Origin: Methylocystis sp. SC2
Lineage (GTDB): Bacteria; Pseudomonadota; Alphaproteobacteria; Rhizobiales; Beijerinckiaceae
Direction: 5' to 3'
Length of the DNA: 64,000 bases
Assembly (NCBI RefSeq): GCF_000304315.1
Contig: NC_018485.1
Coordinates: 776,501 to 840,500, forward strand
Under the pieces are notes generated by a model, which worked only from the letters and a program-made list of their open reading frames with translations, was not told where the DNA came from and ran no database searches. The position numbers and the translations under genes are program-made. The stretch's first letter is position 1; each line of letters begins with the position of its first letter. Positions 8,165-12,895 of this stretch are shown one piece after another.

Positions 8165-8776
8165 CTATATGCTTCGAAGCGCCGCATATTCTTCATTGAT
8201 CGCGTCATGCAGCTCTTTCCACAGAGCATTGACGCGCACGTCCGGCCCCCAATTGTAGAGCGCCTTGGCGACCTCCGCGATCGTCTCATTGATGGGTTCG
8301 CTGTCCCCCTCCTCCAACTCGAGAGAGAAAAGCTTCGGCGGCGCCTCGCCTTTCCAGGCGTCCCAATGTTCGTTCGAATAATTGGAGACGCCGCGCTGCG
8401 CCGCGAGCAGTTCCGGCGCATATTTGGCGAAGCGCCGATGCAGCGGCCCATCCGTCTCCTCTGCATGATACGCGTCGCGAACCCTGAAATAGCGCACATG
8501 CTGCAATTCATGCGCGAGGCAGCAGCCGAGCCGCGCGTCGCTCATCCGCGGATCGTAGTAGATTTCGATGCGGCCGTCGGAGAAAGACTGTCCCTCCGAC
8601 GTAAAGCTCTGGCCAAGAAAGTTGAACGTCTTTTTCTGTGGGCTGAGGGTCACTTTGCTGACGTCATAGCCGAACTGCGCCACGAGGGCCGCGAGCGTTC
8701 GCCGCTTCCTTAAGAAATCGGGCGCGTTTTCGATCTCGCTCACCGTCTGCGCGGGCGCGGGGTCGGCATGCGGCAT
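8165..8776 (-). CDS. Uncharacterised protein with HExxH zinc-hydrolase-like motif
   Basis: About 203 residues from the Met at 8776; an in-frame ATG at 8866 would add 30 Arg-rich residues and overlap the next gene upstream. The centre contains LGCCLAHELQHVRYF, an HExxH motif as in gluzincin metallopeptidases, with acidic residues further on (EETDGPLH, NETIAEV) that could give the third zinc ligand. No signal peptide or membrane segment is evident. The family was not recognised. It is probably co-transcribed with the small gene at 8832-9320. Confidence 0.6.
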   Translation of the reverse strand: MPHADPAPAQTVSEIENAPDFLRKRRTLAALVAQFGYDVSKVTLSPQKKTFNFLGQSFTSEGQSFSDGRIEIYYDPRMSDARLGCCLAHELQHVRYFRVRDAYHAEETDGPLHRRFAKYAPELLAAQRGVSNYSNEHWDAWKGEAPPKLFSLELEEGDSEPINETIAEVAKALYNWGPDVRVNALWKELHDAINEEYAALRSI

Positions 8777-8831
8777 GCGCCGAGCGGCCAGCCTTGAGCG
8801 AAGGAAAAACAGCGCGTCAAAGCCCCGCCGC

Positions 8832-9320
8832 TCACGTCCTAGGCCCACTTCCGAACGGCTCCTCATGCGTGATCACCCAATCGAATTCGGGATGCGCCGC
8901 GGCGACATGCTCCCACCATCGCCGGCCGTCCTGCAAGCGCGGCGAGAGATCGTTGACCCGCAGCCGCCGGAACGCGCCGGGACGCTCCTTTACCCCGGCG
9001 ATGACGGCCTCCACCATCGCCCGCCCCAAGCCGCGCTGCAAAGAATTGATCTGTTCGAAAACCAGCGACGGCGGCTCATAGGCGCCGGCGAGCAGAAGCG
9101 CGATCCCGGACGCCTCCGTCCCGTCGGGCGTCGTAATGAGTTTTGGCGAGGTCGAGGCTTTGATTTCAAAGAAACCGCGCCCGTAGGGCCGCGAATCGAC
9201 GTAAAGGCCGAGGGCCGCGAGATTGTCCGAGATGGCCTCGCCGATCGCCAGCAGGGCTGGGTCCGGCTGTCGAACCGCCGGCTTCATCCGCCAGAACCGC
9301 AAGACCTCCCAAAACGCCAT
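8832..9320 (-). CDS. Uncharacterised protein
   Basis: 162 residues from the ATG at 9320, which has AGGAGG 6 bp upstream on the minus strand; the frame stays open to 9404 but would run into hemW. The sequence has a central LQRGLGRAMVEAVIAGVKER that loosely recalls an acetyl-CoA-binding RGxG loop of GNAT enzymes, and a C-terminal WWEHVAAAHPEFDWVITHEE. A GNAT fold is only a guess. It is divergent from hemW. Confidence 0.6.
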   Translation of the reverse strand: MAFWEVLRFWRMKPAVRQPDPALLAIGEAISDNLAALGLYVDSRPYGRGFFEIKASTSPKLITTPDGTEASGIALLLAGAYEPPSLVFEQINSLQRGLGRAMVEAVIAGVKERPGAFRRLRVNDLSPRLQDGRRWWEHVAAAHPEFDWVITHEEPFGSGPRT

Positions 9321-11216: not shown

Positions 11217-11990
11217 CTAACGTCGATAGAGCTGTTCCAGCGCATCCGCGCCGAGGAGTTCGCGAAGACGGCCGAGGATCAGCAGCACGACGCCAAATAC
11301 TGCAAGCGACATCCAGCCGAAAAAGACGAAGCCCCAGTGCAGCGGACCTGCGAAGCCTTCGTCCATCGCCCAGAACGTGTGACCCCATTCATTGAATCCC
11401 ACATTCGGGATCGTCATGAAGACGCCAACGACTAGAACCACGAAGGCGAGAGAATATCCCTTTGCGAAGGTCGGCAGACGCGTTTTGGCGTAGAAGAACG
11501 CGCCGAGCCCGATGATCGCAAAGAGCGGATATGCAATATAGAAGGTGATGATATTGCTCGGCGTGAAATCCGTGTCGCGCACGGCGGTCATGTGCCAGAC
11601 AGCCGTCTGCTCCGAAAAGAAGCTTAAGCCCCAAAACAGGGCGAGCGAGAAAACGAGCAGCCACTGGACGAGATAAACGAGCCGTCGCGTTTCGGCTGCG
11701 GCTCCCAAATTCGCCAGATCACGATCGCGCGTGCGCCACAGAAAGCCGACAAGGCCGACCGCGCCCAAGCACGACGCGAGAATCGCAAATTGCAGCAGGC
11801 CCATCCAGTAGAGCAGAAACTCGGGGGAGAAGGAATCGAGACCAAATCTCCAGGCGAAGACTTGTTCGTAGAGGCGCAGGATGGCCACGAAGAACATCAA
11901 GACCGCAACGCCGATAAGAACGGGCCTGGCGTCGATGATTCGTTCGGCGCTTCGGGCGGCGGAACGGGCCTCTGCTTTTGTTATGCTCAT
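11217..11990 (-). CDS. Divergent, orphan PmoC-like particulate methane monooxygenase subunit C
   Basis: 257 residues, about the length of PmoC/AmoC, with six predicted membrane helices. Family blocks are clear: RLYEQVFAWRFGLDSF, WHMTAVRDTDFTPS, IPNVGFNEWGHTFW and PLHWGFVFFGWM. By alignment with remembered Methylocystis PmoC, the CuD-site ligands are kept (N200, H204, H218). In the CuC site only H133 remains: the usual Asp129 is Thr and His146 is Asn (TPSNII). GGAG precedes the ATG. There is no pmoA or pmoB nearby. It may be a non-catalytic or specialised paralogue; PmoC-family membership is solid, activity is not. Confidence 0.9.
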   Translation of the reverse strand: MSITKAEARSAARSAERIIDARPVLIGVAVLMFFVAILRLYEQVFAWRFGLDSFSPEFLLYWMGLLQFAILASCLGAVGLVGFLWRTRDRDLANLGAAAETRRLVYLVQWLLVFSLALFWGLSFFSEQTAVWHMTAVRDTDFTPSNIITFYIAYPLFAIIGLGAFFYAKTRLPTFAKGYSLAFVVLVVGVFMTIPNVGFNEWGHTFWAMDEGFAGPLHWGFVFFGWMSLAVFGVVLLILGRLRELLGADALEQLYRR

Positions 11991-12186
11991 AAGTCATCTC
12001 CAAAATTCTGGTTATGCGGGGCATGAACGCCCCCTCGAATGGTTTGATGCGCGCGCTCGGCGGTCGCCGCGTCCGCTCTCGCAGACGTGGCGACAGGATC
12101 CGTTTGAAAGATTTTTCGCGAGCGCGCTCTCGCCGCATCATTTCGCAACGATGGCGGCTGCGTTGAATTTCAGCGCAAGAAAAACG

Positions 12187-12555
12187 TCAGCCCTGTCGGG
12201 GAGGCGCTCGTGGCGATTGCGGCGCGCGCTTTGGCTCGATGCGCGGCGCGTGACTGGACGTCTCCAGCGGCGACGCATGCGCCGCCGTGGGAAAATTCAG
12301 AGCGATCGAAACAATTGGCTTGGAAGGAGGCGCGTCCAACGCGACACTGTGAACAACGCAACAGAATCCATGGCGGTGGCGTTCATTTGGGAAAAGCGGC
12401 GGCTCGCCGCTCCCCGAATCCTGCGGCGCGCAGACCGTTCCGAAGGCGCCTACTCCCAGCGGGACGGCGACCGCGGTCTGCAGGAGCATGAGGAAGGCGA
12501 CGAGCGCCGCAAAAATGCGCGCGCGCTGACGTGTCCGCTGGAAGATTGGATCCAC
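12187..12555 (-). CDS. Small secreted protein resembling DUF2946
   Basis: 122 residues: an N-terminal signal peptide (RIFAALVAFLMLLQTAVAV), then a Cys (TVCAPQ), a HRHGFCCVVH cluster and a Pro/Arg-rich C-terminus ending in RAPP. This layout recalls DUF2946 proteins, which are often found with copper-handling genes. The His/Cys cluster could bind metal. It lies 196 bp upstream of the PmoC homologue on the same strand, which fits a copper link, but assignment rests on layout and not on a firm family match. Confidence 0.5.
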   Translation of the reverse strand: MDPIFQRTRQRARIFAALVAFLMLLQTAVAVPLGVGAFGTVCAPQDSGSGEPPLFPNERHRHGFCCVVHSVALDAPPSKPIVSIALNFPTAAHASPLETSSHAPRIEPKRAPQSPRAPPRQG

Positions 12556-12895
12556 CGCCGCCTCTCGGGTTCCAAGCGCCGAACTTAGGTTTCAATCCTG
12601 GGCGCGGTCAAGCGAGGTGACGAAAAACCGCTGTGCGACGAAGCGACGCGTCAATTTTGATGCAAGACAAAGCGAATGCGCGACGCCGCTTCGCGCCTAG
12701 TTACATCGCTCGCGCTTGATCCCATTTGGTCGGACTCTGGAACAGTGAGACTTGCTTCTCGAATTAGCCTTCCGGCTTCGCCGTCGCTGTGCGGCGACGC
12801 GCAATCTTCGATCGCCTTACGGGTTGAACATGACGTTCCCCCGGGCAGACTCGCCGAGTCGCAGGCGCGACCATAGTTCTATCGGGTGACGCGTT
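12556..12895. promoter_or_regulatory. 340-bp intergenic region between divergent genes
   Basis: It separates the leftward DUF2946-like/PmoC-like pair from the rightward ACP-ligase-acyltransferase gene, so it must hold both promoters. No convincing promoter pair, repeat or RNA motif was identified in it; the GG/GC spacing of a sigma-54 promoter was looked for and not met. Confidence 0.4.

Follow-up and report, generated by a model that had tools for sequence, protein, structure and literature searches.

pmoC2Gs, an orphan pmoC gene in a 64,000-nucleotide stretch of Methylocystis sp. SC2 DNA (the window; G000:C1:776501-840500 of the 3,773,444-base chromosome), falls, as judged by sequence comparison, within a clade made up of solitary PmoC paralogues that have lost the CuC copper site and kept the CuD site under purifying selection. 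Genes of this clade are preceded by a DUF2946-like leader ORF; this linkage is new here. The product could quite plausibly be a copper-responsive alternative PmoC with CuD as its only working site.

There is a long-standing dispute over which of the pMMO copper sites carries out methane oxidation. Both CuC and CuD are conserved in all species according to PMC10030591 and CuC in all known methanotrophs according to PMC12576850, and newer work favours CuD (PMC11194816). A conserved and expressed PmoC that lacks CuC and keeps CuD is an exception to the conservation of CuC in all known methanotrophs, and it offers a natural reagent for the catalytic-site question.

A solitary PmoC with altered CuC and retained CuD site

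The gene and its ligand-coding segments are located as follows.

11217-11990, minus strand: pmoC2Gs, orphan PmoC with CuC ligands lost and CuD ligands kept (ORF, profile, alignment)
11553-11606, minus strand: altered CuC site, codons 129-146 (T129 at 11604-11606, H133 at 11592-11594, N146 at 11553-11555; alignment)
11337-11393, minus strand: retained CuD ligands N200, H204 and H218, codons 200-218 (alignment)

The ORF starts with ATG and encodes 257 amino acids. Its product scores 299.4 bits against PF04896, above the cut-off of 26.7, and misses the NCBIfam equivalog cut-offs (NF041641, 300.5 below 319; TIGR03078, 275.8 below 280.6). Comparison with the PmoC chain 3rfr_C by phmmer (E 4.5e-100) aligns residues 1-251 on residues 1-251 with zero gaps. 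The protein, described in an earlier note on this DNA as PmoC-like along its length, is thus a full-length PmoC, and since the alignment is gapless, residue numbering is the same in both proteins.

Five PF04896 genes are present on the SC2 chromosome. According to PMC3794950, the chromosomal pmoC set comprises two pmoCAB1, one pmoCAB2 and the monocistronic pmoC1Gs and pmoC2Gs. When the five genes are matched to this set, the ORF at 11217-11990 is the one that remains, and we infer that it is the already known pmoC2Gs. The function of monocistronic pmoC is termed yet to be identified in PMC3794950. The earlier note overlooked this published identity, for which proteome data exist, as well as the leader at 12187-12555. 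Its statement that the window holds no pmoA/pmoB partner agrees with our search: tblastn (E 1e-5) with the SC2 proteins PmoA1 and PmoB1 gave no match in the window. Such a match is likewise absent from 16 CuC-less loci on genome contigs, some of which are short.

In Methylococcus capsulatus Bath numbering, CuC is formed by Asp156, His160 and His173 and CuD by Asn227, His231 and His245 (PMC12576850), and the CuD phenylalanine cage by Phe177, Phe240 and Phe248 (PMC11194816). Subtraction of 27 places these residues in the pmoC2Gs product at 129/133/146, 200/204/218 and 150/213/221, respectively. After this shift, the ligand roles given in the earlier note agree with PMC12576850. Of the CuC ligands, Asp129 is replaced by Thr and His146 by Asn, and only His133 is retained. 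All CuD ligands (N200, H204, H218) and all cage residues (F150, F213, F221) are present. Both ligand patterns are those described in the earlier note, and the gapless alignment with 3rfr_C over residues 1-251, together with the residue states of the orthologues, rules out that the lost ligands are merely misaligned. AlphaFold2 model built from the clade alignment (mean pLDDT 75.7, pTM 0.75) is silent on CuD geometry because of low-confidence stretches at residues 1-15, 134-139 and 201-219.

Distribution and evolution of CuC-less PmoC

Among 207 aligned rows (duplicates included), 110 are of THN/NHH type, 89 of DHH/NHH type and 8 are variants. The 194 distinct sequences, which represent the closest relatives of the query and not the whole family, were sorted by residue 129. 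Asn146 together with Thr149 occurs in all 112 sequences without Asp129 and in none of the other 82, all of which have His146 and Glu149. Within the CuC-less group, Thr129 is found in 108/112, His218 in 112/112, His204 in 111/112 and Asn200 in 107/112 sequences, and the full set of CuD ligands plus F150, F213 and F221 in 103/112. Asn200 or His204 is changed in six (N200S in four, N200A in one, H204C in one); F150Y occurs in three and H133 is lost in two of the 112. The possibility that the substitutions are limited to one assembly thus fails: Asn146 is shared by 112 distinct sequences, and the same Thr/Asn pair recurs across the clade in related genomes. Four distant clade members (P0084, P0112, P0116, P0098) have Ser200; three of them also have Ser129 and one also Asn133.

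In a tree of 106 rows (77 CuC-less, 29 CuC-intact), one change suffices to explain the distribution, with branch support of 100/100; the tree is midpoint-rooted, its bootstrap is not fully settled, and Methylococcaceae rows lie on the CuC-intact side. Comparisons with the pmoC2Gs of the window give dN/dS of 0.09-0.24 (19 comparisons). Ten class-specific differences separate CuC-less from CuC-intact sequences, eight of them at positions 122-157, the span that holds the CuC site. The CuC-less clade has also lost three glutamates that are fixed in CuC-intact PmoC, E149 (82/82), E69 and E73 (both at least 97%).

The exact codon pattern for EQTAVWHM was found in 25/39 Methylocystis genomes and that for EQTAVWH in 25/397 genomes of the family, within one of 43 genera (Methylocystis only); these counts are lower bounds, since variants escape the pattern. 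Three of the 14 pattern-negative genomes of the genus (G004, G017, G018) contain no PmoC scoring 291-301 bits, the range of CuC-less copies. One genome, G027, holds two copies of the pattern (G027:C1 and G027:C132).

Three other explanations for the gene were rejected. Phage origin is contradicted by PmoC from viral contigs: 61 of 64 were typed at six sites and all 61 are DHH/NHH, the remaining three being partial. Plasmid origin is contradicted by the ten matching plasmid records, all below 60% identity; the two plasmid PmoC that were examined, from M. rosea and M. iwaonis, retain the CuC site. Finally, the sMMO gamma chain (PF02964) occurs in 7/39 genomes of the genus and six of these seven carry the CuC-less gene. 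With no anticorrelation between the two, CuC-less pmoC is no stand-in for missing sMMO.

A DUF2946-like leader precedes CuC-less pmoC

Upstream of pmoC2Gs, two further features were recognised.

12187-12555, minus strand: DUF2946-like leader, 122 aa, GTG start, Cys and CCVVH, C-terminal PRAPPRQG (ORF, profile, alignment)
11991-12186, minus strand: intergenic region between leader and pmoC2Gs, 196 nt, with GGAG Shine-Dalgarno-like site at 11998-12001

The N-terminus of the leader contains a hydrophobic stretch, as judged by eye, which may be an export signal. The leader recurs in 14/16 CuC-less loci on genome contigs, and in the other two the contigs end too soon. It is present in L019, which has none of the other searched neighbours in common, and in L018, a short contig. 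In a wider set of 42 rows it was found in 38, the four misses being contig ends. Once duplicates are removed, 24 loci offer 700 nt or more of upstream sequence, and all 24 have it on the same strand as pmoC; a stricter regular expression recovered it in 22 of them. The same screen detected the leader in 44/44 CuC-less rows (duplicates included) versus 1/68 CuC-intact rows, 8 rows being too short. The lone CuC-intact match, an Arg-rich frame 829 nt away, looks like chance.

One Cys, CC, H and PRxPP are invariant in 24/24 leaders, while the remainder varies. The x residue of PRxPP is Ala in 21 leaders, Pro in two (L092, L104) and Gly in one (L086). In 22 measured loci, 45-47 residues separate CCxxH from RxPP, RxPP lies 1-8 residues from the end, and the region between leader and pmoC is 148-257 nt long. 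Against PF11162 (DUF2946), the leader of the window scores 14.9, below the cut-off of 23.7; the orthologous leader of L019 reaches 33.9, the only one of nine scanned leaders to pass. Leader dN/dS is moderate (median 0.47 of 21). Among the open-licence papers listed in our searches, none joins DUF2946 with pmoC or reports CuC loss, and PmoC/AmoC is unmentioned in the main text of the papers on the DUF2946 proteins CruR and CutF.

Elsewhere in the SC2 genome, other leader-like DUF2946 ORFs precede, on the same strand, an MbnP gene (L121, G000:C1:1455220-1455567) and an ExbB gene (L122, G000:C1:1407823-1408197; score 23.5, just under the cut-off). In L123, the ORF for a TonB receptor comes after one with a RAPP-like/QAPP motif. 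The DUF2946 search was loose: at E 1 it also gave matches in 9/14 control genomes, one of them over the cut-off. In the window, the conserved neighbour ORF at 8165-8866 resembles metalloproteases weakly, its matches to DUF2268 and Peptidase_M78 staying below cut-off.

Cis elements and RNA features

The following elements lie upstream of the leader.

12561-12566, minus strand: GAGAGG, Shine-Dalgarno-like site of the leader
12584-12611, minus strand: promoter-like block TTGACC-N16-CCTAAG
12634-12649, minus strand: conserved sequence box GCGTCGCTTCGTCGCA, preceding the promoter-like block

GCTTGAC is found upstream of the leader in 24/24 loci (15 aligned, 9 by eye). Since GCTTGAC, a -10-like element, a Shine-Dalgarno-like site and the GTG start all precede the leader, leader and pmoC2Gs probably share one transcript. 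The GCGTCGCTTCGTCGCA box, an imperfect inverted/direct repeat kept in 15/15 aligned loci, is a possible operator. Genome-wide, GCGTCGYTTCGYCGCA is matched exactly at a single place, the box at 12634-12649. Elsewhere it occurs only with one mismatch, at 8 places (reversed control, 5), so that no regulon was defined.

RNAalifold predicted no conserved stem-loop masking the Shine-Dalgarno site of pmoC in close, mid or mixed sets (mixed-set energy 0). Simulated stalling raised mean exposure of this site from 0.30 to 0.41, with a gain above 0.1 in 9/24 loci (no shuffle control). Rut-like excess of C over G was not found, the leader exceeding coding sequence in only 9/24 loci. Hence neither of the known CruR and CutF output modes is supported. 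EcfG, RpoH, RpoN and sigma-E-like motifs were not found upstream in the 24 loci.

Expression and possible role

We propose that the leader most likely senses copper as a nascent peptide, in the manner of CruR and CutF. Copper at its Cys/CCxxH residues would alter pausing at the C-terminal PRxPP, and PmoC expression would be set in this way. Since the locus is closer to CruR than to CutF in its RAPP ending and long intergenic region, we lean slightly towards production of PmoC2Gs when copper is scarce. It would then enter pMMO as an active, alternative C subunit that requires one copper site fewer and has CuD as working site. This entire scheme, a nascent-peptide-switched pMMO of Methylocystis that has CuD as its sole PmoC copper site at low copper, is tentative and less likely than not. 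If the leader senses copper, methanotrophs would also regulate a pMMO-type subunit by copper after transcription, for which we found no description in the open-licence papers searched.

Against this reading count the score of the window leader below the Pfam cut-off, absence of CXXC, RNA features that support neither known output mode, moderate leader dN/dS and the conditions of published induction, namely high ammonium and high O2. In SC2, PmoC2Gs rises about 5-fold, from an LFQ of 4.50e5 at 1 mM to 2.23e6 at 75 mM ammonium, and PmoC1 is far more abundant (1.83e8 at 1 mM; PMC9600857). The protein is listed there as J7QLZ6 and linked to this ORF by gene name, not by sequence; membrane subunits were poorly recovered, and PmoC1 and the pmoC1Gs product are indistinguishable in that study. 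In M. bryophila, monocistronic pmoC B1812_06380 is up at 20% versus 1% O2 (LFC 3.9; PMC12319191). This gene is placed at about 4420 kb (G001; locus tags interpolated by hand) and the CuC-less copy at 4400 kb, the next nearest pmoC copies being hundreds of kb off; we infer that the two are the same.

These expression data would fit a non-catalytic, AmoC3-like PmoC that stabilises or rebuilds pMMO under stress, its leader answering export stress or another metal. A non-catalytic copper or assembly paralogue was also one of the two possibilities offered in the earlier note, next to a natural test of the catalytic site. Some CutF-like proteins are indeed not copper-specific (PMC9973294). We nevertheless regard this explanation as less likely: CuD ligands and the Phe cage are kept in 103/112 sequences, which is unexpected if metal is unused, leader motifs match those of copper leaders, and the alternative sigma-factor motifs searched for upstream in 24 loci (EcfG, RpoH, RpoN, sigma-E-like) were not found. 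Preservation of CuD would also suit a membrane copper buffer or loader that acts at CuD and is turned on by copper; under CutF-type leaders, copper increases expression of the gene that follows (PMC9973294). However, CutF-type control acts through a stem-loop masking the Shine-Dalgarno site, no conserved form of which was found at pmoC2Gs loci, and CutF-type intergenic regions are mostly short, in contrast to 148-257 nt here; such a copper-excess role is rather improbable. It is very unlikely that CuC-less PmoC tunes pMMO to another substrate, e.g. ammonia, since in spite of its rise with ammonium (PMC9600857) the CuD pocket is unchanged and the gene has no PmoA/PmoB partner of its own. A decaying relic is hardly credible even though two CuC ligands are lost and some distant members also lack N200, H204 or H133, given dN/dS of 0.09-0.24, wide conservation and detection of the protein (PMC9600857).

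Comparison with known systems

The leader most resembles CruR of Bordetella pertussis, in which 45 residues separate CXXC from RAPP, RAPP lies three residues from the end and the intergenic region is 162 nt long (PMC9426467). Both are upstream first ORFs with a metal-type motif, C-terminal RAPP, similar spacing and a long intergenic region. On the other hand, the pmoC2Gs leader has CCxxH instead of CXXC, a rut-like signal was not seen, and the gene downstream is pmoC instead of a TonB receptor. CutF of Rhodobacter capsulatus, also a DUF2946 protein, shares the metal-motif leader and proline-rich C terminus, but no conserved masking stem-loop was found at the pmoC2Gs locus and its intergenic region is longer. 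Neither the CXXC of CruR nor the CxxxC of CutF is present in the leaders; 24/24 have the invariant Cys and CCxxH instead.

Solitary pmoC genes are known from other contexts. Phage-encoded stand-alone pmoC is also solitary, but its CuC ligands are present (PMC7674155). In SC2 itself, pmoC1Gs is likewise a solitary chromosomal pmoC; in contrast to pmoC2Gs, the gene adjoins ftsH and its product is identical to operonic PmoC1 (PMC3794950); in our alignment this product has CuC intact.

With operonic PmoC (3rfr_C; PF04896), the pmoC2Gs product shares gapless alignment over 251 residues, CuD ligands and the Phe cage. It differs by lack of Asp129 and His146, by Thr in place of Glu149, by the ten class-specific differences, by its solitary gene and by a leader of its own. 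AmoC3 of Nitrosomonas europaea, a C subunit that is both solitary and divergent, has a role in stress. The pmoC2Gs product, compared with it by description and not by sequence, is likewise a divergent solitary C subunit.
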